DNA of 44,045 bases. Origin: Gloeocapsa sp. DLM2.Bin57. GTDB taxonomy: Bacteria; Cyanobacteriota; Cyanobacteriia; Cyanobacteriales; Gloeocapsaceae. Below, in pieces: positions 168 through 29,621 of this stretch (within the stretch, counting starts at the first letter, position 1; the number at the start of each line of letters is the position of its first letter). The notes below the pieces were generated by a model that was given only the letters and a program-made list of their open reading frames with translations, did no database searches and was not told the origin of the DNA. Location of the stretch: positions 1 to 44,045 of the forward strand of contig RECR01000046.1 in the NCBI GenBank assembly GCA_007693955.1. The letters run 5' to 3'. Made by a program: the position numbers and the translations under genes.

Positions 168-1154
168 ATGACAATCAAAGCATTTGTTACAGGTGGAACA
201 GGTTTTATTGGCGCTCATTTAGTGAGACTATTATTAAATAAAGGTTATCAAGTAAAGGTTTTAGTACGTCGGGAAAGTAAATTAGATAACCTACAGGGTT
301 TACCAGTAGAAATAGTCACAGGTGAACTCAATAGCCCTGATTTACCTAGTTTAATGCAAGATTGTCAGGTGTTGTTTCATGTAGCGGCTCATTACTCTCT
401 TTGGAGAACAGAGCGATCACGACTATACCAGTATAACGTCTTAGGGACACGTAATGTTTTAGCCGCGGCTCGTGAGAGTAAAATTGACAGAGTCGTCTAT
501 ACTAGTTCAGTAGCTGCAATTGGTGTAGGGAAAGATGGTCAACCTGTCGATGAAACCTATCAAAGTCCTGTCGAAAAACTCATCGGAGATTACAAAAAAT
601 CCAAGTACTTTGCAGAACAAGAGGCTTATAATGCTATTAAACTAGGTCAAGATATCGTGATTGTTAACCCTAGTACTCCCGTTGGTGCGTTAGATTTAAA
701 ACCTACTCCCACAGGTGATATTATCCTACGCTTTTTACGTGGACAAATGCCCGCTTATGTCAATACTGGTTTAAATATCGTTGACGTCAAAGACGTAGCT
801 AGAGGACATCTGTTAGCCTTAGAAAAGGGAGTAAATGGCGATCGCTATATTCTCGGTAACCAAAATCTCACCCTGAAAGAATTATTAGCCACTCTCGCGC
901 AAATAACTGGTTTAAAACCACCTACGGTTACTATCCCTCTCTGGATACCCCTAACAGTAGCAACTATTGATGAATTTATACTCGCACCTCTAGGTAAAAC
1001 TCCTTCTATACCTCTAGATGGAGTCAAAATGTCAGCCCAATTAATGTACTATAATTGCCAAAAAGCCAGAGAAGTTTTAGGATTACCTCAGTCTCCTATT
1101 ACTAATGCTCTCACAGAAGCTGTTAACTGGTTTAAAGAACAAGGTTATTGTTAA
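168..1154 (+). CDS. hpnA: HpnA-type NAD-dependent sugar epimerase/dehydratase
   Basis: This 328-aa protein is an extended short-chain dehydrogenase of the family annotated as hopanoid-associated sugar epimerase. The Rossmann motif TGGTGFIG is at residues 8-15 and the catalytic pair is Y142-x3-K146 (YKKSK). Family knowledge: these cytosolic enzymes bind NAD(P) and act on nucleotide sugars or related carbonyl substrates; the exact substrate here cannot be read from sequence. The length is normal for the family. The ATG at 168 follows an A-rich stretch without a clear Shine-Dalgarno sequence. The stop codon lies 4 nt before the next gene's start, so the two are probably cotranscribed. No other hopanoid gene is in the window, so the link to hopanoids comes from family name only. 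Confidence 0.82.
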   Translation: MTIKAFVTGGTGFIGAHLVRLLLNKGYQVKVLVRRESKLDNLQGLPVEIVTGELNSPDLPSLMQDCQVLFHVAAHYSLWRTERSRLYQYNVLGTRNVLAAARESKIDRVVYTSSVAAIGVGKDGQPVDETYQSPVEKLIGDYKKSKYFAEQEAYNAIKLGQDIVIVNPSTPVGALDLKPTPTGDIILRFLRGQMPAYVNTGLNIVDVKDVARGHLLALEKGVNGDRYILGNQNLTLKELLATLAQITGLKPPTVTIPLWIPLTVATIDEFILAPLGKTPSIPLDGVKMSAQLMYYNCQKAREVLGLPQSPITNALTEAVNWFKEQGYC

Positions 1155-1158
1155 ATTT

Positions 1159-3792
1159 ATGACCAAGTCTTCCCTAAATAAATCCTTTAGACAATGGTTT
1201 AACTTTTCCCGCTTTGCTATTAAATATAAAAAATCTTTTATTGCTCTTTGGTTAGGTATAAGTATAGCAGGAATGTTAGCCTTTAGTTCCCTGCGTTATG
1301 ATTTATTTCCTGATATTAGTTTCCCTGTAGTTATAGTAACAGCAGAAGCACCTTTAGCAACGGTTATTGAAACAGAAACACAAGTAACCGAGATTCTAGA
1401 AACTAATTTAGCCTCCCTAAGTCATATAGATGAGATTTACTCTAGTACTTATGTAGGTCAAAGTGTGATAAACGTTCTCTTTGACGGGGGAACAGATTTA
1501 GACGCAGCAACTACAGAAGTAGAAAACCTTTTAGCACAAACATCTTATCCTGTTGAAACTGATATCAATATTTTCCCTATCGATTTAAACGAATCACCAG
1601 TAATTAGTTATGTCTTGATTAGTGAGGAAAAAACTCCTCAAGAATTAAAAACAATTGCTGAACAAAAAATCTTTCCTATTATTCAACAATTACCAGGAGT
1701 ACGTAAAATTAATGTCCTAGGTTTAGGCGAAAAAGTAGATAATTATTTTGCCACCAGAATTAGTTTTAATGGTGAAGAAGGCTTAGGTTTTCAAGTAGTT
1801 AAACGTCATGATACCAATACCCTAGAATTAGCTCAAGCAGTTGCAGCTAAAATCACTGCATTACAACCCCAATTACCAGGAATAAACATAGCGATCGCCG
1901 AAACCCAAGCCGATTATATCGAATCTGCGGTTCAAGCTACAATCAATGAGTTATTAATCGCTATTATCCTAGCTATAATCGTTATTTTCCTCTTTTTACG
2001 CAATTGGCGCGCTAGTTTAATTACCGCATTAAGTATTCCTATCTCACTCTTAGCAACTTTTATCGTAATGGCTATAGCTGGATTAAGTTTACAAACCTTA
2101 ACTTTACTGGCTTTAGCTTTAGTGATAGGGATTGTTATCGATGATTCGATTGTTGACGTAGAAAACATCGTCAGAGTCATTAATCAAGGGAAAAACCCCC
2201 AAGAAGCAGCGATTATCGCTACAGACGAAATCAGTCTCACCGTAACCGCTTCTACCTTAACTATAGCCGCTGTATTTATTCCCGTAGCCTTTATGGGGGG
2301 AACAGTAGGTAAATTCTTTCAACCCTTCGGTTTAACAGTATCTGCTGCGGTAATTTTCTCTCTCTTAGTAGCGCGAACTCTAGCTCCTAGTTTAGCAGTT
2401 CTGTGGTTAAAACCTCAGCCAACTAAAACTACTAAATCCATCGACGATTTAACCATCATTAAACTCTACCGTCGGGGATTGCGCTGGTGTTTACATCATC
2501 GACCTGTAGTTATGAGTATCGCTATTAGTAGTATGTTGTTAGGTATGGCGATTATTCCTTTGATACCCCAAGGGTTTATACCTCGTTTAGATAGGGGAGA
2601 ATTTAATATAATTTATACCGTTGCTTTACCTGAATTAGCTACTACTGGTGAATCAAGAGCAACAGAAACCGAAACCACCGATAATAGTGATTTAGACTGG
2701 TTAGGAAATATTCGCAGAGCACCAGAAAGATTCTTACTCAGAAGAACGATTAGAATGGGTAAAGAATTAGAAGCAGTAGTCTTAAATCATCCCGACGTAG
2801 AATCAGTCTTCACTATAGCAGGTATTCGCGGAGAACCCAATCGGGGTAAATTAGCGATTCAACTCAAAGAAAATCGGGAATCTGACACCATTACTGTTCA
2901 ATCTCAAATACGAGAATCTCTCCCTCAACTTAGAGACGTGACTACTAGTGTAGAAGATATTCCCTTTGTGCAAACTGAAGCAGAAAAACCCATACAATTA
3001 GCTATTCTAGGAGATGATCTTGATACATTATTACCAGTAGCTCAAGCAATTAAAACCCAAGCTCAAACTATACCAGGTTTAGTGGATATCGAAATCTCCA
3101 ACTCAGGAGAACAACTAATCGAACGTCTCAATGGTCAACGAGTTATCTATATCAGTGCTAATCTAGATTTAGCTCAAGGTTTAGAAAACGCGATCGTTAG
3201 TTTAGAAAGACAAGCTCAACCCCTCTTACCCATGGGTGTATCTCTACGACGTTGGGGAAGTGCAGATCATAGTAATCAAGTTGTAGGACGATTTGCCAGA
3301 GCCTTGATTTTAGCTATAATTTTAATGTTAATCGTCTTATGGTTTCTCTTTAGAAGATTATTAGAGCCTTTGGTCGTTATTCTCTGTCTCCCTCTGTCTA
3401 TGTTCGGTGCAATGTTAGGATTACTACTCACAGGTAGTGATTTTGGCATTATTTCACTAATTGGCTTCATTTTTCTGTTGGGATTATTGGATAAAAATGC
3501 TCTGTTGTTGATGGATTATACCAATCAATTGCGCGACGATGGACTCAGTCGAGAAGAAGCCCTAGTATATACAGGAGGAGTACGCCTACGCCCAATCGTA
3601 ATGACTACCATCTCTACCGTCTTGGGAATGATACCTATTGCTTTAGGGTGGGGTGCAGGTGCAGAATTAAGACAGCCAATGGCGATCGCTATTATGGGAG
3701 GTTTATTGAGTTCTTCTCTATTGAGTTTATTCGTTGTACCTGTTTTATATACTCTTCTTGAGGATTGGTGGAGTAAAAAACAACTAGAGTAA
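1159..3792 (+). CDS. RND-superfamily efflux permease lacking both docking subdomains
   Basis: This 877-aa inner-membrane transporter is of the AcrB/HAE1 type. The start at ATG 1159 is preferred over an upstream frame-extending TTG because it lies 4 nt after the hpnA stop. Transmembrane segment 4 keeps the proton-relay Asp pair (GIVIDDSIVDVEN). The second half keeps the relay Lys (LLDKNALLLMDY) and the RLRPIVMTT motif. It is about 150-200 residues shorter than AcrB-type pumps. The shortfall maps to two places: about residues 180-205, where VLGLGEK runs almost directly into RISFNGEE, and about 638-670. These correspond to the DN and DC insertions that form the funnel contacting the TolC-type channel. 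The porter subdomains and all membrane blocks remain. It may therefore work without a TolC partner, possibly on lipids, given hpnA upstream; that is inference. Confidence 0.85.
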   Translation: MTKSSLNKSFRQWFNFSRFAIKYKKSFIALWLGISIAGMLAFSSLRYDLFPDISFPVVIVTAEAPLATVIETETQVTEILETNLASLSHIDEIYSSTYVGQSVINVLFDGGTDLDAATTEVENLLAQTSYPVETDINIFPIDLNESPVISYVLISEEKTPQELKTIAEQKIFPIIQQLPGVRKINVLGLGEKVDNYFATRISFNGEEGLGFQVVKRHDTNTLELAQAVAAKITALQPQLPGINIAIAETQADYIESAVQATINELLIAIILAIIVIFLFLRNWRASLITALSIPISLLATFIVMAIAGLSLQTLTLLALALVIGIVIDDSIVDVENIVRVINQGKNPQEAAIIATDEISLTVTASTLTIAAVFIPVAFMGGTVGKFFQPFGLTVSAAVIFSLLVARTLAPSLAVLWLKPQPTKTTKSIDDLTIIKLYRRGLRWCLHHRPVVMSIAISSMLLGMAIIPLIPQGFIPRLDRGEFNIIYTVALPELATTGESRATETETTDNSDLDWLGNIRRAPERFLLRRTIRMGKELEAVVLNHPDVESVFTIAGIRGEPNRGKLAIQLKENRESDTITVQSQIRESLPQLRDVTTSVEDIPFVQTEAEKPIQLAILGDDLDTLLPVAQAIKTQAQTIPGLVDIEISNSGEQLIERLNGQRVIYISANLDLAQGLENAIVSLERQAQPLLPMGVSLRRWGSADHSNQVVGRFARALILAIILMLIVLWFLFRRLLEPLVVILCLPLSMFGAMLGLLLTGSDFGIISLIGFIFLLGLLDKNALLLMDYTNQLRDDGLSREEALVYTGGVRLRPIVMTTISTVLGMIPIALGWGAGAELRQPMAIAIMGGLLSSSLLSLFVVPVLYTLLEDWWSKKQLE

Positions 3793-21620: not shown

Positions 21621-22829
21621 ATGTTAAGCAACAAGAGGGTTTTAATCGGTATTGGGGGTGGAATCGCTGCTTATAAAGTCTGTGAGGTAATTTCTACCCT
21701 CTTTCAACAAGGTGCAGAAGTTAGGGTAATTCTGACTCAATCTGCACAACAATTTATTACACCAGTGACGATAGCTACCCTCAGTCGTCATCAAGCTTAT
21801 ACTGATGCTGATTTTTGGCAACCTCATCAACCTCGTCCTCTCCATATTAGCCTAGGGGAATGGGCTGATATCTTTTTGATTGCACCTCTAACAGCGAATA
21901 CTCTAGCTAAATTAACCCATGGTTTGGCTGATAATTTATTAACTAATACGGTTTTAGCTTCTACCTGTCCCATTTTAGTCGCACCGGCGATGAATACGGA
22001 AATGTGGTCACAAGTAACGGTGCAAAATAATTGGCAACAACTGCAAACTCTCTCCCGTTATCATAGTGTAGGACCAAATGCGGGTTTATTAGCTTGCGAT
22101 CGCCGGGGAACTGGTCGTATGGCTGAACCTATACAGATTATTAACTCTCTTCAATCTCTTCTCTACACTCAAGGTAAACGGGATTTACAGGGTAAGTCTA
22201 TCTTAATCAGTGCAGGAGGGACAAGGGAACATCTTGACCCTGTACGCTTTTTAGGTAACCCTTCTACTGGTAAAATGGGTATAGCTTTAGCTCAAGCTGC
22301 CCATTCTCGCGGTGCTAAGGTTACTTTAGTCCATGGTCCTATTACTAACGAGTTATTAAGTTTACTTCCCGATATATCTAGATTCGCTGTAGTCAGTGCA
22401 GCCGAAATGCGCGATCGCTTGCTAGAACTTTTTCCCCAACAGGATTGGTTAATTATGTCAGCTGCTGTAGGAGATGTCCAACCAGTGAGTTATTCTCCTG
22501 TGAAACTTCCTAAAGAGTCTTTACCTGAGCATTTAGCTTTACAACCTATACCTGATATCCTCTCAGAATTAGCCCAAGTTAAACAACCTCATCAGCTTTT
22601 AATCGGTTTTGCTGCTCAAACGGGAGAGATTATCCCACCTGCTTTAGCTAAGTTACAACGCAAGGGATTAGATGTCATCGTCGCTAATCCCGTAGATACT
22701 CTTAATGCGGGTTTTGGCACTGATACTAATCAAGGAGTTTTTTTAGATCGTCAGGGAAGACAACAACAGATTAAATCTTGTAGTAAATTAAAATTGTCTC
22801 ATCATTTGTTAGATTTTATTAGGGTTTAG
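21621..22829 (+). CDS. coaBC: Bifunctional phosphopantothenoylcysteine synthetase/decarboxylase
   Basis: CoaBC joins cysteine to phosphopantothenate (CoaB) and decarboxylates the product (CoaC) in coenzyme A synthesis. The 402-aa protein has the FMN-binding CoaC domain first ([10 protein letters not shown], then [20 protein letters not shown] and the signature APAMNTEMW). The CoaB domain follows, with [32 protein letters not shown] and VANPVD. The length is normal. It starts 3 nt after the DUF2555 gene and its end overlaps the converging secreted-protein gene by 4 nt. Confidence 0.96.
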
Positions 22830-23272
22830 TTAAAAGCAATGCCATAATAAGTTCTACCACTATTATCTTGCCAAGCACATAAAATACTTTCTGCGGTTAT
22901 TTCGCAAGCCCCAACGCCATTAACTGATTCTACATTACCATTATTGTGATCAACAATTAGATAACTTTCACTGTAATATCTTTTGCGTCTGACAAACCAA
23001 CTATCATGAGCAGAAGCATCTACATCATTAGAACTCATTTGTGGGATAAAAAACATATGATATACATTATCTGCAATGTAGTGAAAAGCAAAAGAATTGT
23101 TAACAGGATTATAGGTAAAGGTGACTTGACAATTATTAGACTTGCCAATTGGAGTAGCTAATTCACAAGAATTAATGCGAGGATTAAATGAGATAATATT
23201 GTCAGAAGCTAGGATGGGTTGAGAAGTAAGTAAGACTGTACCGATAGATAAAAAGGTGGTTAGTTTAAACAT
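22826..23272 (-). CDS. Unknown secreted protein with signal peptide
   Basis: I do not recognise this 148-aa protein. Residues 1-22 ([22 protein letters not shown]) form a typical Sec signal peptide with a cut expected after LASD or ILA. The mature part is short, rich in Asn and Tyr and probably beta-structured, with four Cys that could form two disulfides (SCEL, NCQV, ACEI, LCAW). It is the farthest of three small envelope-type genes downstream of the giant caspase/WD40 gene on the same strand, 121 nt after the nearest one, so shared transcription is uncertain. Confidence 0.6.
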
Positions 23273-23393: not shown

Positions 23394-23897
23394 TCAGAAA
23401 TCACGATCCAGTTGACGACAGATTAGCCAAGTTAGACATAGCCACAGTGCGGTAAAACCAATATCTACGATACCTACAAACAAGGTCATGATAACTAGTG
23501 CCCCCAAATCTGCGAACCACTTAGCTGACCAAGGATCGACTAACATCTGTAGCCAAGGTTCAAGCCAAATAACATACATTGCTAATATAAATAAAAACCA
23601 AACCAACTTTTTAATAATACTGCCGTTGACTCGAAAACAGACCAATAAAACAAGACATATCTGTAAAAAAATTACTAAATATTGAATGGGCTTAAAAGAA
23701 GACCACATAGCTCCTGTAAACCAAGGTAAGATTAACTCATAACCAAAATTATTTATATTTTGTTGCACTACAGGAGCAGAAGGAGAATTGAACTCATAAG
23801 AAATTTTCAGAGTGCACTTAGCAATAATCCACAAAACCCACAATTTTAGTAAAATACTTCGAGGCAATGATATCATCATAAATTTAAATCCTCTCAA
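23394..23897 (-). CDS. Unknown four-helix membrane protein
   Basis: This 167-aa protein has no family I recognise. Hydrophobic segments lie near residues 10-30, 70-87, 98-118 and 132-160, separated by short loops. A soluble loop of about 35 residues after the first helix (SYEFNSPSAPVVQQNINNFGYEL) probably faces the periplasm. The C-terminus is CRQLDRDF. Its start is 9 nt after the stop of the upstream coiled-coil gene, so these two are very likely one operon. In-frame Met codons at residues 7 and 8 could also serve as starts. Confidence 0.55.
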   Translation of the reverse strand: MRGFKFMMISLPRSILLKLWVLWIIAKCTLKISYEFNSPSAPVVQQNINNFGYELILPWFTGAMWSSFKPIQYLVIFLQICLVLLVCFRVNGSIIKKLVWFLFILAMYVIWLEPWLQMLVDPWSAKWFADLGALVIMTLFVGIVDIGFTALWLCLTWLICRQLDRDF

Positions 23898-23906
23898 TAA
23901 GTAGCG

Positions 23907-24329
23907 TTATTCTAATAAAAATATTTCTCTTTCTATCCTGTCTATTTGTTGACTATAATTACTCAAACGCATTCCATAGGAAGTTAAATTTGTAGCGACA
24001 ACATTACAATGCTGAAAGTTGTCAGGATTGAGACAGTAGTTAACACCAATCAGTCCTAAACCTAGTAATATTACTCTAGTATTGTCATCAATATTTTGTT
24101 CTAAAATACCTGCGAGTCCTCCTCCAGAAGCAATTACAGCGGCAGAAGCTTTAGGATTGGTTAGCATATATGCACCCATTTCTATTTGTAGGTTTTGTAT
24201 TTCTAATTCGTAATCTTCTAAACGCTGTCTTAATTGTTGAATTTGAGCACTATTATCAGCGATCGCTATGCTAGGATTTAAACAAGCCAAAGCACAGGTA
24301 ATACCCAATATCGTGTTTTTGAGACTCAT
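23907..24329 (-). CDS. Unknown exported coiled-coil protein with a C-terminal hydrophobic region
   Basis: This 140-aa protein begins with a signal peptide (MSLKNTILGITCALACLNPSIAIA). A heptad-patterned helix follows (QIQQLRQRLEDYELEIQNLQIEMGAYM), then a Gly/Ala-rich stretch and a hydrophobic segment (VILLGLGLIGVNYCL), then a second amphipathic helix to the end. No family is recognised. It lies 96 nt downstream of the caspase/WD40 gene and 9 nt upstream of the four-helix membrane protein. A membrane-associated partner role is possible but only positional. Confidence 0.55.
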   Translation of the reverse strand: MSLKNTILGITCALACLNPSIAIADNSAQIQQLRQRLEDYELEIQNLQIEMGAYMLTNPKASAAVIASGGGLAGILEQNIDDNTRVILLGLGLIGVNYCLNPDNFQHCNVVATNLTSYGMRLSNYSQQIDRIEREIFLLE

Positions 24330-24425: not shown

Positions 24426-27400
24426 TTAACTATCTATACCATCGCAAATTTTTCTATCTTCTTCACTAAGATTGGGATTATAGGTTAAGTAGTCTCCTAT
24501 CCAGTTGCAGCCATTGATTAACAAAATATCTAAATCAGAGGTGAATAGAAAATTGTTTAGATTCCAGAGTTTTATTTCTCCATCAACGCTAGATGAAACA
24601 AGCACTTTACCATCAGGAGAAAAACTCACAGACATGACTCGATTATTATGTCCTTCCAAAGTTGTTAATAACTGACCATCGGTTGTCCAAAGTTTAATAG
24701 TTGTATCAGCGCTTCCTGTAGCTATTAAATCACTAGTAGGAGAGAAAGCAATGTCTGAAACTCTATCGGTATGTTCTCTCAAAGTTTTAATAAATGTTCC
24801 GTCTCTTTGCCAAAGTTTAACGGTTGAATCTTCACTAGCTGAAGCAATTAATTGACCATCAGGAGAGAAAATAACCTTCCAAATCCAATTACTATGTTGT
24901 CTCTCTAAAGTTTTAATTTCCTGACCCTCTTTAGTCCAAAGTTTGATATCATTATCTTTACTTCCCGTTGCGATGATCTCACCATCTGGACTAAAACTTA
25001 CTCCATAAACCGCGTCTTCATGACCAATCAATTGAGTAATAAATTCACCTTCTCTAGTCCATAAAATAGCAGTACTATCACCACTAGCAGTAACCAACAT
25101 TTGACTATCTCTACTCCAACTGAGATCTCTGATATAATCCTGATGTCGATCAAGGGTTGCGATGAGATTTCCTTGTCTATCCCATAGTTTAACAGTGGTG
25201 TCTCTCCCCGCACTCCCTGTAGCAATCATTGTACCATCTGGACTAAAACTAGCTACATTTGCCCCTTGATTATATTCTAGAGTTTTGACAAAAGTTCCAT
25301 CAGATGTCCAAAGAATAATGGTTTTTGGTTGTTGATCTTGGTTAGGGTTTTCATTCCAACTCGCTGATACTAACAATTCCCCATCAGGACTAAAATTCAC
25401 TGTCATTACCCTATTATCATCATGATGCTTTTCTAGAGTTTTAGGCATCAGACTAACCAAACTCCACAATCTCAGAGTAGAATCCCAACTAGCTGTAGCT
25501 AAGGTTTGACCATCAGGACTAAAATTAACACCTTTAACCTTAGCAGTATGTCCATTAAAAGTGTTTAGTAAAATACCGTCTCTAGTCCAAAGTTTAACGT
25601 TTTCATTGTCACCGTCACTGACTGTAGCTATCTTCTGACTATCATGACTAAAACTAACACGATTAACATTAGCTTGATGTTCTAAACGTTGTAACAAAGT
25701 ACCATCAGCTGTCCAAATTATAGCGGTATCGTCATCACTGACAGAAACTAATAGTTCACCATCCCGACTGAAACTAACATCTCTTACTCTTTCTGAGTGC
25801 TCTGTAAGGGTTTTGATAATAGTACCATCAAGAGTGAGTAAGTGAGTATTCCCATTTCCCAATGCAATAGCTATAATCTGACCATCAGGATTAAAACTAA
25901 CTCCCCAAACCTCTGTTTCTATGGGTATATCTTGAAGTAGAAGACCATCAAAACTCCACAATTTGACTGTACCATCTAAACTCACTGTAGCAAAGGTTTG
26001 ACCATCAGGACTAAAATTAATATCCATGACCCAACCTGTATGATTTGTCAAAGTTTTCGGTGATATATGCTCATTAAATCGAATACAGCGATCGCCTTCT
26101 AATTCTACACAATCAAGTTGCCAAATTTTGATAGTTTGATCGGAGCTAACCGTAACAATTTGTGTTCCGTCAGGAGAAAAACTAATGCTATTTACCCAAT
26201 TACGATGTCCTTCAAGATTTCCTACTAGTTTACCCTCGGTTGTCCAAATTTTCACAGTATGATCAGCACTAGCTGTAGCCATTAGTGTTCCATCAGAATT
26301 GAAACGAACATCTTCGAGTTTATCATTATGACCCTCTATACGATTAGATTCTCTGACTCCATAAATTAATTGTGGAAAAGCTTCTATTACCCTGGTTTGA
26401 GTATCCTTAGTGGCAAAATTCCACTTTTGCAGTCGCTGAAGCTCTTTCAAGGCTTTTACTCCTTCTACAACCGCGCTAAGACGCTGATTAAAAGCAAATT
26501 GAGCATTAGATAAAGCGATTTGAGCTTTAATTTCATTATTAGTTGCTTGGCGTAGTTGCCATAAGGTTGCTATTAAAGCCATTGAGATCAAGACAATAAA
26601 TCCTGTTACACTTCCTCTAAGCAAAAGTTTCCGACGTTTTCTAGCTCGAATACTAGCATTAATCAACTCCTGACTATTCGGACCAAGATAATTAGCATGG
26701 TTAAGATAAAATTCTTCATATTTTGCTAAAGCTCCTTTAGATAATAAAAAATCATCTTGTTTTCCATTGACTTTCCATTCATCTGCTTTGTGTTCAATTT
26801 CTTTAATAAAGCGATACTTTTGGCGATCGGTATCTAACCATTCTTTCAGTGTTTCCCAATCTTGTAAGATGATTTCATGGGCTATTTCTACCGTTGTTTT
26901 TTCTTGCTCTTGAGTAGCTGGATTATTTTCTTCTCTATTAACGACCACTAATCTAGCCTTAATTAACGCTTTTAAGGTAGAATCTAAAACATTTTTATAC
27001 TTATCAATTTGCAAGGTATATAGGGGAATACGATTGCGAGTTTCCTTATTCAACTCTTCCTTGTTTTTAGCCAAAAATACTAAGGAAAGAAAAATAAACT
27101 GAGCGCATTCTTTTTCATATTTATTTAATTTATCATAAGTTTCTTGAGCTTTATTACTCAAAAATTTGCCTAATTTACCAATATGCTTTTGATAATCTTG
27201 AAGAGTTAATTTTCCTTGACTACGCTTTTGCCATAATTCCTCTAAAGCGTATTGTAATAATGGTAAACTCCCTTCTGTTAATTCTTTTAATAGTAAAGCT
27301 ATTAACCCTTCTTCTACTTCTAATCCAACTTTTTGGGCTGGTTGGACAATCATTTGTCGATATTGTTCATCTTCTAGACGACAAGAAGGTACTAAAACTT

Positions 27401-29474
27401 GAGATTTACTAATCAGAGGAGCTAATTCACTCATTCTTAAACATTGATCTAAAAAATCACTTCTTAATGTTATAATTACTCGGAAAGACTCTCGTGTTTT
27501 TTTGATTGTTTCTAAGATAATGTTTAGAAAACTTTTTTTGTCTTTTTCTGCTGTTAAAGTAAATAATTCTTCAAATTGATCAATGACTAATATTGATATT
27601 TCTTGTGATTGTTGCTTTAACCAGTAGCTAAAAGAATCACTGTCTAAATTAGAATTATTTATTCCTAATGTTTTAACTAAGGTGCCTAAGGGATTATCAC
27701 CAGGAATAATTACCCAACACTGACAGGATTGATACTTGTTTAATGTGAGAGAAAATAACCCTTGAGTTAATAATTGTGGTATTACTCCTGCTTTGACTAC
27801 AGAAGATTTACCACTACCTGAAGCTCCTACTATACCTAAGAAATCAGTAGATTGAAATTTGTTAATAATCTCTCTGATTAATTCTTCTCGACCATGGAAA
27901 AAGTAAGCGTCATCTTGGTTAAAAGCCTGTAAACTTTTATAAGGACAAAGATTAAGAGTAAATACGTTATTATCAGAACGTTGTACTTCTACTGTTAAAA
28001 TTTCTCTTACTTCAAGAGAACCAGGTAACCATAATCTTAAGTTAAGATCAGATTGTGATTGACTCCATTGTTGTAATTGAGTAATTAATTCTATTAGCCA
28101 AAATTCTTTGTTTGATGTTCCAGCTATAGTTAAAATATTAATTAACTGATCAAGAAATTTGCGCTGATTAGATTCACTAGTAGTTGAAGTTATTAAACAT
28201 AAAGATTTATTCTGGTCAGGTTTGAAGATATTAGTTAAATCTTCAATTTGTCCATTTTCGTTAACAAGATCAGCAATCACTATAATTTCTTCAACTGGAG
28301 AAGTTCTTAATCTTTCTCCTAGCCAATTCAGATTAATTAGCTTGTTTTGCCCACATTTTAATTCAGATTCTCCCACTTGATTTAAGGTTATTGTTCCTGC
28401 TAAATAGAGGATAAATGTCTGTTGATTAGTTTCTAAATAGCTAGCTATTTTTTGTTCAAGTTGAGATTGCAAATAACAATATTCTACCTCAAAGTTACCT
28501 TTAGTTTTCAGTATTTTGCATAACTTTATCTGAGTTGCTGAGGAAGATAATTGATCAATTATTAAAGCTTTTCTCTGATTATACTGTTTAGCTAAGCCAA
28601 TCAATAAGTCTCTACCTCCTCCTCCTCTAATGATGGTTTGGGGAGTTTGAGAGATATTAACAGAAAAACGATTAACTTTTAATTGATTAGATGCTTTTTT
28701 TAGAGTTCCTCCTATACCCTTAGATACATCATTAACTCTAGCTATATTTTTTTTACATTCAATATATTTATAACTACTGTCTTTGACATAATAGAATAAA
28801 CTATCAGCACTTATTTGACCTTCAGGGTTAGCTGCTTTACCTTTTAAACCTTCAATCAAACAATAGGTGAATAAACCATGTTTTAGTTCAGGAATTTCCC
28901 AAGAACGTTCATTTTTATCACAAGAAAGCATTGCTGAAAAATCTTGACTTTGTTCTGCTTGCTCGTTCAAAATAACTAATAGTTGGCTTGTGGGATTTGG
29001 GTGATATTTATCTTGATATTGTTCTTGACAAGCGTCTAGCCAAACTAGTTGACGTTTTGCTTGACATTGTCTCAGTTCACCCAAAAGAGTATCTAATTTT
29101 AATCCCGTTGCTGCTAAATTAGCAAAATTTGTATCTGCTACACATAAAATTGGTCGATTATTATCCAGATAACCGTGTCCAGAAAAATAAAATAAAACTA
29201 GATCTTCTGGTTTAGCTTTGCGGAATATTTGAATACTTTCTAGAATATTTGATTGATTGGGAGACTTTTCACCTTCGTCATAAAGAGCAATTATTTCTGT
29301 TTGCCAAAATCCTGCTGTTGCTATTTTCAAGGTTTCTGCTAATGCTTTGCAATCCTTAGCACAATATCTCAAATTAGGGATTTGACTATCTTGATAAGAA
29401 TTAATACCTACTAAAACTAGCCAAAATTTAGCGTGAGTAATTTCCTCGACATTATGACTGGTTAAGTTTACCAT
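24426..29474 (-). CDS. Caspase-STAND NTPase-WD40 repeat protein
   Basis: This 1682-aa multidomain protein has a caspase domain at about residues 15-260, with the His of YFSGHG (100) and the Cys of WLDACQ (149). A second, apparently degenerate caspase-like stretch covers about 285-450. A STAND NTPase follows, with FFHGREELI, Walker A GASGSGKSS near 549-557 and Walker B SILVIDQFEELFT near 626. One membrane segment lies near 950-970 (VTGFIVLISMALIATLWQL). Fourteen WD40 repeats from about 1055 to 1650 would make two seven-bladed propellers. Proteins of this design are known from cyanobacteria and are proposed to act in signalling, immunity or regulated death: ligand binding by WD40, ATP-driven assembly, then proteolysis. 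ATG 29474 is chosen over GTG 29480 because AGG lies 5-6 nt upstream of it. The gene is AT-rich for the window, which may indicate transfer. Confidence 0.9.
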   Translation of the reverse strand: MVNLTSHNVEEITHAKFWLVLVGINSYQDSQIPNLRYCAKDCKALAETLKIATAGFWQTEIIALYDEGEKSPNQSNILESIQIFRKAKPEDLVLFYFSGHGYLDNNRPILCVADTNFANLAATGLKLDTLLGELRQCQAKRQLVWLDACQEQYQDKYHPNPTSQLLVILNEQAEQSQDFSAMLSCDKNERSWEIPELKHGLFTYCLIEGLKGKAANPEGQISADSLFYYVKDSSYKYIECKKNIARVNDVSKGIGGTLKKASNQLKVNRFSVNISQTPQTIIRGGGGRDLLIGLAKQYNQRKALIIDQLSSSATQIKLCKILKTKGNFEVEYCYLQSQLEQKIASYLETNQQTFILYLAGTITLNQVGESELKCGQNKLINLNWLGERLRTSPVEEIIVIADLVNENGQIEDLTNIFKPDQNKSLCLITSTTSESNQRKFLDQLINILTIAGTSNKEFWLIELITQLQQWSQSQSDLNLRLWLPGSLEVREILTVEVQRSDNNVFTLNLCPYKSLQAFNQDDAYFFHGREELIREIINKFQSTDFLGIVGASGSGKSSVVKAGVIPQLLTQGLFSLTLNKYQSCQCWVIIPGDNPLGTLVKTLGINNSNLDSDSFSYWLKQQSQEISILVIDQFEELFTLTAEKDKKSFLNIILETIKKTRESFRVIITLRSDFLDQCLRMSELAPLISKSQVLVPSCRLEDEQYRQMIVQPAQKVGLEVEEGLIALLLKELTEGSLPLLQYALEELWQKRSQGKLTLQDYQKHIGKLGKFLSNKAQETYDKLNKYEKECAQFIFLSLVFLAKNKEELNKETRNRIPLYTLQIDKYKNVLDSTLKALIKARLVVVNREENNPATQEQEKTTVEIAHEIILQDWETLKEWLDTDRQKYRFIKEIEHKADEWKVNGKQDDFLLSKGALAKYEEFYLNHANYLGPNSQELINASIRARKRRKLLLRGSVTGFIVLISMALIATLWQLRQATNNEIKAQIALSNAQFAFNQRLSAVVEGVKALKELQRLQKWNFATKDTQTRVIEAFPQLIYGVRESNRIEGHNDKLEDVRFNSDGTLMATASADHTVKIWTTEGKLVGNLEGHRNWVNSISFSPDGTQIVTVSSDQTIKIWQLDCVELEGDRCIRFNEHISPKTLTNHTGWVMDINFSPDGQTFATVSLDGTVKLWSFDGLLLQDIPIETEVWGVSFNPDGQIIAIALGNGNTHLLTLDGTIIKTLTEHSERVRDVSFSRDGELLVSVSDDDTAIIWTADGTLLQRLEHQANVNRVSFSHDSQKIATVSDGDNENVKLWTRDGILLNTFNGHTAKVKGVNFSPDGQTLATASWDSTLRLWSLVSLMPKTLEKHHDDNRVMTVNFSPDGELLVSASWNENPNQDQQPKTIILWTSDGTFVKTLEYNQGANVASFSPDGTMIATGSAGRDTTVKLWDRQGNLIATLDRHQDYIRDLSWSRDSQMLVTASGDSTAILWTREGEFITQLIGHEDAVYGVSFSPDGEIIATGSKDNDIKLWTKEGQEIKTLERQHSNWIWKVIFSPDGQLIASASEDSTVKLWQRDGTFIKTLREHTDRVSDIAFSPTSDLIATGSADTTIKLWTTDGQLLTTLEGHNNRVMSVSFSPDGKVLVSSSVDGEIKLWNLNNFLFTSDLDILLINGCNWIGDYLTYNPNLSEEDRKICDGIDS

Positions 29475-29621
29475 AAACACCTATGCTTAAGTCTGTTTGG
29501 TATAGAATAATACATTGTTAAGATTACACTTAATTTAAGTATAAAGCAGAAAAAATTAACTGTACAACTAGATTTTCAAAAATTTGCTACTATTTGATTA
29601 AGCAGCTATTAAAAAATAACC
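29475..29621. promoter_or_regulatory. Divergent intergenic region with a 13-nt palindrome
   Basis: This 147-nt AT-rich spacer separates the caspase/WD40 gene (minus) from the gene at 29622 (plus). It contains the interrupted palindrome ACTTAA-T-TTAAGT at 29528-29540, and a related half, CTTAAGT, at 29485-29491. Such a site could bind a dimeric regulator of both genes. In AT-rich DNA a chance palindrome is also plausible. Confidence 0.35.

Follow-up and report, generated by a model that had tools for sequence, protein, structure and literature searches.

Cyanobacterial metacaspases, or orthocaspases, that carry WD40 repeats, including the forms described as cbMC-beta WD40(14) and NACHT-WD40 (Jiang 2010, PMC2853523; Asplund-Samuelsson 2012, PMC3501461; PMC7475262; PMC8283722), have been listed for more than a decade as possible apoptosome analogues; the parts of this literature covered here gave no ligand, no substrate and no tested mechanism. 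A protein of this kind is encoded in the stretch of DNA analysed here, hereafter the window: 44,045 nucleotides (contig RECR01000046.1, positions 1 to 44,045) of the 3.45-Mb draft genome of Gloeocapsa sp. DLM2.Bin57 (GenBank assembly GCA_007693955.1). The gene, at 24426..29480 on the minus strand, is an open reading frame (ORF) of 1684 codons from a GTG at 29480, and its product joins a caspase, a predicted pseudocaspase, an nSTAND1-type nucleoside triphosphatase (NTPase), a predicted transmembrane helix and 14 WD40 repeats in one chain. Beside it lies a divergent gene for a protein of 305 residues, here called P305.

The type of architecture is already known, and the idea that it might be new was rejected: papers of 2010-2021, those cited above among them, list cyanobacterial caspase-(NACHT)-WD40 proteins. 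The window protein shares with the published orthocaspases, as far as the covered parts describe them, a caspase p20 region with its His-Cys dyad, an NTPase in some, and about 14 WD40 repeats; it differs from those descriptions in its dead second caspase, in the STAND-linked origin suggested for that domain, and in its P305 partner. These three points are what the present analysis adds to the family. Nowhere in the covered parts of PMC2853523, PMC3501461, PMC7159879, PMC7475262, PMC8283722, PMC6426788 and PMC8195603 was a fusion described in which a dead caspase stands between an active one and STAND.

A constant caspase, variable C-terminal parts and the use of STAND also recall the EACC1 and EACC2 caspase systems, as the covered parts of Kaur 2020 (PMC7159879) and Kaur 2021 (PMC8195603) present them. 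The order of domains differs, however: EACC2 sits N-terminal to the caspase (PMC8195603), whereas here the caspase-like domain follows it, and for this reason the middle domain was not called EACC2. With the caspase beginning near residue 17, no domain would fit ahead of it. The EACC1-associated caspase model NF047832 (NCBIfam) scores 97.5 bits, below its cutoff of 140. The 5' gene of EACC1 systems has a single transmembrane helix; the 5' neighbor here, P305, shows no family match. Neighbors of the EACC2 kind, sigma factor and DUF1822 genes (PMC8195603), are found in some distant relatives; among the near neighbors scanned in the window, neither gave a match.

Closer in layout are two single-caspase nSTAND1-WD40 proteins (L161 and L162), in which a caspase directly precedes nSTAND1 and is followed by a hydrophobic segment and WD40 repeats; they have a single caspase that retains the His and Cys motifs, and it is probably to this caspase that the dead domain of the window protein corresponds. 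The pairing of an active caspase with a pseudocaspase resembles that of caspase-8 with c-FLIPL, although in the window protein both domains occupy one chain and are apparently of different descent. The Apaf-1 apoptosome and NLR proteins likewise combine a propeller sensor, a STAND switch and a caspase output; Apaf-1 uses NB-ARC rather than nSTAND1 and has a CARD, whereas the protein described here carries its protease in the same chain, spans a membrane by prediction and has its sensor probably outside. A Pfam search of residues 1-1050 in four pieces, taken as far as E 1, brought up neither NB-ARC nor CARD, and the NTPase match is to nSTAND1. The original prediction, made from the sequence alone, had read apoptosome-like logic into this protein and put it forward as a death or immunity effector, a role for which it is still a candidate. 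The layout of protease, STAND switch and propeller sensor bears that out; its list of parts was incomplete, the second caspase-like domain (about residues 296-500) having been overlooked and the P305 gene having gone unnoticed.

The caspase pair, the STAND switch and their conservation

Residues are numbered from the GTG. An ATG at 29474, two codons further on, is the likelier start, and the conserved Met column of the family corresponds to residue 3; H102 and C151 below are H100 and C149 in the numbering of the original prediction. The N-terminal third of the protein was searched by tblastn (E 1e-3) against 84,980 species genomes; 258 stretches encode relatives, not all of them full-length, and the best 80 of these, representing 78 loci, were kept. 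Nine of 84 family ORFs were shorter than 1000 residues and were left out, which gave an alignment of 76 rows of at least 1000 residues with the window protein included; four further rows were set aside for counts over 72 full-length proteins. Separately, 35 fetched relatives of 1611-1864 residues were aligned with the window protein. Judged by their titles, all 78 loci are cyanobacterial except one, a family member on a contig from a metagenome-assembled genome labelled Gracilibacteria (L130), perhaps a binning error.

The active caspase, an orthocaspase domain, covers residues 17-266 (28683..29432, minus strand), with a Peptidase_C14 match (PF00656) at residues 22-232 (E 7.6e-20, 72.0 bits against a cutoff of 21.4). 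The catalytic His, H102 (codon 29175-29177), and the catalytic Cys, C151 (codon 29028-29030, both minus strand), are present in 76/76 rows, as are D43, D149 and the Walker-A lysine K558. The STAND NTPase, residues 513-909 (26754..27944, minus strand), matches PF20703 with 352.5 bits against a cutoff of 27.1 (E 5.6e-105) and has Walker A GASGSGKSS at 552 and Walker B LVIDQFEE at 631; the Walker-B aspartate D634 is found in 75/76 rows, the remaining row having X. The intact dyad and the intact Walker motifs claimed for this protein are thus both confirmed, and the domain searches that had been proposed as a check matched caspase, nSTAND1 and WD40 alike. Because H102, D149, C151 and K558 are each invariant over all aligned rows, the observation is not a product of chance.

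An AlphaFold2 (AF2) model of residues 1-512, computed from the 76-row alignment, reached a mean predicted local distance difference test score (pLDDT) of 84.8 and a predicted template modelling score of 0.82, and the strand and helix order of a caspase occurs in it twice. The first copy resembles metacaspase-4 (6w8r: Z 22.5, root-mean-square deviation (rmsd) 2.6, 218 residues aligned), and D43 and D149 align with Asp residues that line the pocket for a basic residue in that enzyme. On this comparison, the predicted specificity of the active caspase is cleavage after Arg or Lys. Elsewhere in the source genome a single Peptidase_C14 match was found (L052; contig C43, 44497-45279), in a frame of 701 codons.

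Residues 266-510 match no Pfam family. Structure matches of the 1-512 model covered only residues 3-297, and the second domain (residues 296-500; 27981..28595, minus strand) was modelled and searched alone. Residues 290-500, folded by themselves, gave a pLDDT of 89.3, and this predicted model matched procaspase-6 (Z 17.8, rmsd 4.5, 192 aligned) and, tied with it, the human pseudocaspase c-FLIPL (Z 17.4, rmsd 2.9, 173 aligned), while the best Foldseek match was MALT1 (E 1.7e-6). The position of the catalytic His (363) holds Thr in the window protein and His in 1/76 rows; at residue 405, a single position away from where the catalytic Cys would be, 56/76 rows have Cys and the window protein has Leu. 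The combination of a caspase fold with lost catalytic residues marks the domain as a pseudocaspase, and we predict with confidence, from the models and the alignment, that residues about 296-500 form a second, catalytically dead caspase fold. It is present in 76/76 rows, in spite of having no catalytic His in 75 of them.

The two caspase folds behave as a module, since the tandem is also found, without STAND, in shorter proteins (L170-L175): L173 and L175 have a C-terminal GUN4 domain (2/2 tested), and in the C-termini of the other four, L170-L172 and L174, short repeated segments containing 'GPIA' or similar were noted by eye.

P305 and its link to two families of proteases

The P305 gene (29622..30539, plus strand) encodes a protein with an inter-domain linker that carries a conserved Arg, here in the context G103-R104-R105, and that matched nothing in Pfam, NCBIfam or PADLOC. 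In 8/8 of the closest loci (L073-L080) a P305 homolog is found no further than 1.7 kb from the family gene, and another lies 2.2 kb from a family gene on the Stanieria plasmid pSTA7437.02, among toxin-antitoxin, NADAR and transposase genes. Together with the window, P305 is found near the family gene in the ten closest genomes examined. Weighing against a general partnership, it was not found in the remaining 70 family loci, several of which are ended by contig edges, and two further Stanieria copies of the family gene have no P305 close by; P305 is therefore not required by all members. In one of the close loci (L074:9962-12268, Fischerella muscicola) the family gene is broken into a 474-residue caspase part and a separate STAND-like part of 272 residues, with P305 still there.

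Homologs of P305 were detected in 32/148 genomes, the source genome included, and 5 of the 38 matches were left out of the loci fetched. Thirty fetched P305 loci lie outside the closest clade, and 23 of them have a match to a CHAT profile; a span of 6 kb was searched, all 23 matches fall within 2.2 kb, and in every one the CHAT gene is downstream of P305 on the same strand. Seven of the 23 loci had served to build the profile, and in those seven both TPR and CHAT were confirmed by Pfam. As to the other seven loci, four show by eye the start of a TPR-CHAT-like protein broken by a contig end or a frame break, one stops at a contig edge and two are without CHAT. CHAT genes are common (143/148 genomes); a rough comparison set of one WD40 locus and 19 caspase loci (20 in all, 4-10 kb each) yielded one CHAT. 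The loci L209-L218 and L225-L244, in which a P305-family gene is followed by a CHAT gene, look like a two-gene system of cyanobacteria; no name for the pair was met in the literature covered, and P305 itself has no published name.

Because it is linked to both caspase-STAND and TPR-CHAT proteases, P305 is a candidate substrate or regulator of them. A parallel is Craspase, in which the TPR-CHAT protease Csx29 has a dedicated substrate, Csx30 (covered parts of PMC10028731 and PMC11106740): there too a clan-CD protease has a dedicated partner, although cleavage of P305 is so far only a candidate event. That P305 is no substrate at all but serves clan-CD proteases as inhibitor, chaperone or adaptor is quite possible, though we would not put it first. 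It accompanies two differently built protease families, and conserved small neighbors are frequently regulators. Csx30, however, sets a precedent for a substrate, and the linker Arg is found in 9/9 caspase-associated copies as against about 4/10 aligned CHAT-associated copies (by eye), a distribution more like that of a tuned cleavage site. Should P305 prove to be a substrate, caspase-type and CHAT-type signaling in cyanobacteria could both be approached through this one protein, with its linker Arg as the predicted point of cleavage.

Proposed mechanism, its output and its orientation

We propose, at somewhat less than even confidence, that the window protein is a single-chain transmembrane receptor-protease, in which a signal would pass from outer propellers through nSTAND1 to the caspase pair and on to the cleavage of a few targets, P305 foremost. 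The propellers, outside the cytoplasmic membrane in the periplasm (or, less likely, in the thylakoid lumen), would bind a protein or particle, and binding would be relayed through the single helix to the nSTAND1 switch, which would exchange its nucleotide, oligomerise in the cytoplasm and bring the N-terminal caspases together. The dead caspase, probably descended from the former caspase of the STAND protein, would keep its old contact with STAND and connect the switch with the active caspase that was added by fusion, in a pairing like that of c-FLIP and caspase-8. A few targets would then be cut by the active caspase, with P305, in its inter-domain linker, the prime candidate, and the outcome would probably be a protective or suicidal response. 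What the computations show directly is the domain content, the conservation of the catalytic residues, the confidently predicted fold of the pseudocaspase, the charge bias and Cys pattern throughout the family, and the linkage of P305; the compartment, the oligomerisation, the coupling through the pseudocaspase, the role of P305 as substrate and the final outcome are steps that we infer.

A fuller version is doubtful as a whole: a one-chain transmembrane "apoptosome" in which the ancestral STAND caspase has lost its catalysis and become the built-in coupling partner of a second caspase of different descent, newly fused to it, and a fast-changing external sensor triggers cleavage of P305, whose family TPR-CHAT proteases share across cyanobacteria. 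If true, it would describe one protease-substrate axis serving two caspase-superfamily receptors, which was not met in the parts of the literature covered. The locus offers three handles, namely a dead caspase of apparently separate descent between protease and switch, a predicted outward and fast-changing sensor, and the linked P305 with its predicted cleavage point, and these bring a long-standing conjecture about cell death in bacteria within reach of experiment.

The same architecture might instead regulate stress physiology or development, acting on gene expression by limited proteolysis, for example of P305 or of a component of a sigma-factor pathway, with no part in death or defense; we think this rather unlikely, though it is a serious contender. 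In 12/78 loci sigma-factor-like genes, and in 11/78 DUF1822-like genes, lie no more than 4 kb from the family gene (one representative of each confirmed by Pfam), and for a caspase system with such neighbors a transcriptional output has been proposed (Kaur et al. 2021, PMC8195603, in the part covered). The genes named around the window copy are, moreover, mostly housekeeping genes. In the closest clade, however, DUF1822 is found only at L078 and on the Stanieria plasmid, and no sigma gene is clustered there. Fast propeller change, patchy presence and plasmid copies fit conflict better. The N-terminal third is matched in 77/148 genomes at E 1e-10, the source genome included, many of the matches being to the caspase part alone; the genus has two other genomes, of which one is only 77% complete, and neither yielded a full-length copy; and three plasmid records hold relatives, two of Stanieria cyanosphaera PCC 7437 and one of Rippkaea orientalis PCC 8801. 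A viral home is unsupported: the caspase matches in viral contigs, 21 in all, were weak and partial (22-36% identity), and none reached beyond residue 284 of a 560-residue query.

The candidate "caspase" model of PADLOC matches the window protein (E 3.7e-16). Two observations count against the mechanism proposed above. The PADLOC scan, which took in 17 of the 41 other window ORFs of at least 80 residues, matched only UvrA among them, through generic ATPase models, and found no clear defense genes; and P115, a 115-residue protein (DUF4258 match below cutoff) that follows the family gene in 8/8 of the closest loci, the broken Fischerella copy among them, was not seen at the window copy.

The orientation of the sensor had been posed as a question by the original prediction, which placed a membrane segment between the ATPase and two propellers. 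The strongest hydrophobic segment of the protein is indeed there, at residues about 952-970 (26571..26627, minus strand; Kyte-Doolittle 2.09), between nSTAND1 and WD40 and preceded by an Arg/Lys-rich stretch. A hydrophobic 19-mer (Kyte-Doolittle at least 1.6) occurs at the same site in all 72 full-length proteins, counting that of the window, and in every one of them Lys and Arg are more numerous on its N-terminal side. The WD40 region (match E 7e-128; residues about 1042-1640; 24561..26357, minus strand) holds 14 repeats by a profile built from the window protein's own repeats, as do 43/72 of the full-length proteins (range 8-17), a number that suits the two seven-bladed propellers predicted. 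Over the 72 proteins, Cys makes up 0.09 per 100 residues of the propellers and 1.44 per 100 of residues 1-940, and a C-terminal pair of Cys, spaced 16-27 apart, is kept in 71/72; in the window protein the pair is C1658 and C1679 (24444..24509, minus strand), a possible disulfide. The charge bias, the nearly Cys-free propellers and the Cys pair argue for a sensor outside the cytoplasm, and the predicted answer is a consistent one: caspase and STAND are probably cytoplasmic, with the propellers facing the periplasm. An outward-facing WD40 part behind a membrane segment had been suggested earlier (PMC7475262, in the part covered).

Among WD40 proteins of the source genome, Cys per 100 residues comes to 2.06 and 1.0 in two that lack a membrane segment, to 0.34 and 0.79 in two that have one, and to 0.0 in one that seems to be exported. 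Some points pull the other way: this control consists of only five proteins, the value of 0.79 belongs to one with an N-terminal membrane segment and is near the 1.0 of one without, and the location assigned to the propellers rests on the positive-inside rule and on composition. It is nonetheless improbable that the hydrophobic segment does not span the membrane or that the propellers are cytoplasmic, with the sensor reading intracellular signals like Apaf-1. A single hydrophobic 19-mer judged by Kyte-Doolittle values, and WD repeats that may be Cys-poor for other reasons, would allow it; the charge bias in every full-length protein, the Cys contrast within the chain and the Cys content of the genome's own WD40 proteins without a membrane segment speak against it.

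The propellers change much faster than the catalytic parts. In a comparison of 2555 pairs, while caspase identity spans 30 to 65%, propeller identity stays flat at a mean of about 39%, near the baseline of 32.5% measured against three sister proteins, and it rises to 43% at caspase identities of 65-75% and to 56% at 75-85%. One protein of the source genome (L193:4960-8394; contig C66; 1145 residues) has a hydrophobic segment and WD40 repeats, and the caspase search gave no match there.

Descent of the dead caspase and other features of the window

Nine other proteins have a single caspase that is matched by a profile of the second domain (E 8e-10 to 4e-14). By BLAST, seven of these nine sister proteins have STAND directly after the caspase, and Pfam confirmed nSTAND1 in 5/5 tested; seven of the nine sister caspases keep the SGHG motif. 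In hhalign comparisons the pseudocaspase scores 122 with the sister caspases (E 4.6e-18), 54 with a 19-row outgroup in which two rows have STAND (E 3.4e-7), and 48 with its own N-terminal neighbor (E 2.2e-6), while its scores with the STAND profile and the following helical profile are 17.8 and 16.1; 20 column shuffles against two targets (40 comparisons) reached at most 26.6. The N-terminal caspase, by contrast, is closest to the outgroup (305, E 1e-45), with the sister set next (150, 2.7e-22). A tree of 36 rows separates the pseudocaspases, the sister caspases and L194 and L196 from the N-terminal caspases and nine outgroup rows with support 100/99. L194 and L196, which fall on the pseudocaspase side, are the only STAND-bearing proteins among the 19 of the outgroup, and the N-terminal caspases group with orthocaspases lacking STAND.

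Profiles and tree put the second domain among caspases located ahead of STAND. The simplest history to account for this is probably a fusion, in which an orthocaspase was joined to the front of a caspase-STAND-WD40 receptor and the receptor's original caspase later became inactive. The evidence is good, though not final. On the other side of the balance, the pseudocaspase branch is long (2.18), which may have distorted where the tree sets it; in an earlier tree, built without outgroups, the sister caspases came out between the two groups; the sister proteins L166 and L168 show no STAND by BLAST; and the sister caspases L166 and L169 are without the catalytic His. Because these last two have also lost the His motif, decay of this caspase type may have occurred more than once. 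A decayed internal duplication of the adjacent caspase with no coupling role, which the shared fold, the same order of elements and direct adjacency might suggest, is disfavored as the source of the middle domain and very unlikely, since profiles and tree join that domain to the sister caspases rather than to its neighbor and it persists throughout the alignment and in fusions with other C-termini.

Directly downstream of the family gene, 23907..24329 (minus strand) encodes a 140-residue protein with a signal-peptide-like start, judged by eye, possibly a secreted partner; a homolog of 168 residues lies downstream in L074, and a different family that looks secreted (signal peptides again by eye) is downstream in 5/8 of the closest loci. 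Neither P115 nor the secreted neighbors had an NCBIfam match. A homolog of P115 at L223:6743-7087 has vWA and PP2C genes close by, together with a gene that by eye resembles a kinase gene, and the cluster is possibly of the TerY type. Family members near sigma-factor and/or DUF1822 genes include those at L084, L088, L104, L107, L109, L119, L128, L140, L143, L146, L147 and L149, and some such loci hold two family genes in tandem. Further downstream in the window, two small ORFs (23394-23897 and 22826-23272) have no Pfam match over cutoff; by eye, one is membrane-like and one has a signal-peptide-like start. Two overlapping ORFs on the plus strand, 168-1154 and 1105-3792, may represent a split RND permease gene, because the best stretch of the second, which matches RND permeases, begins at about model position 269.

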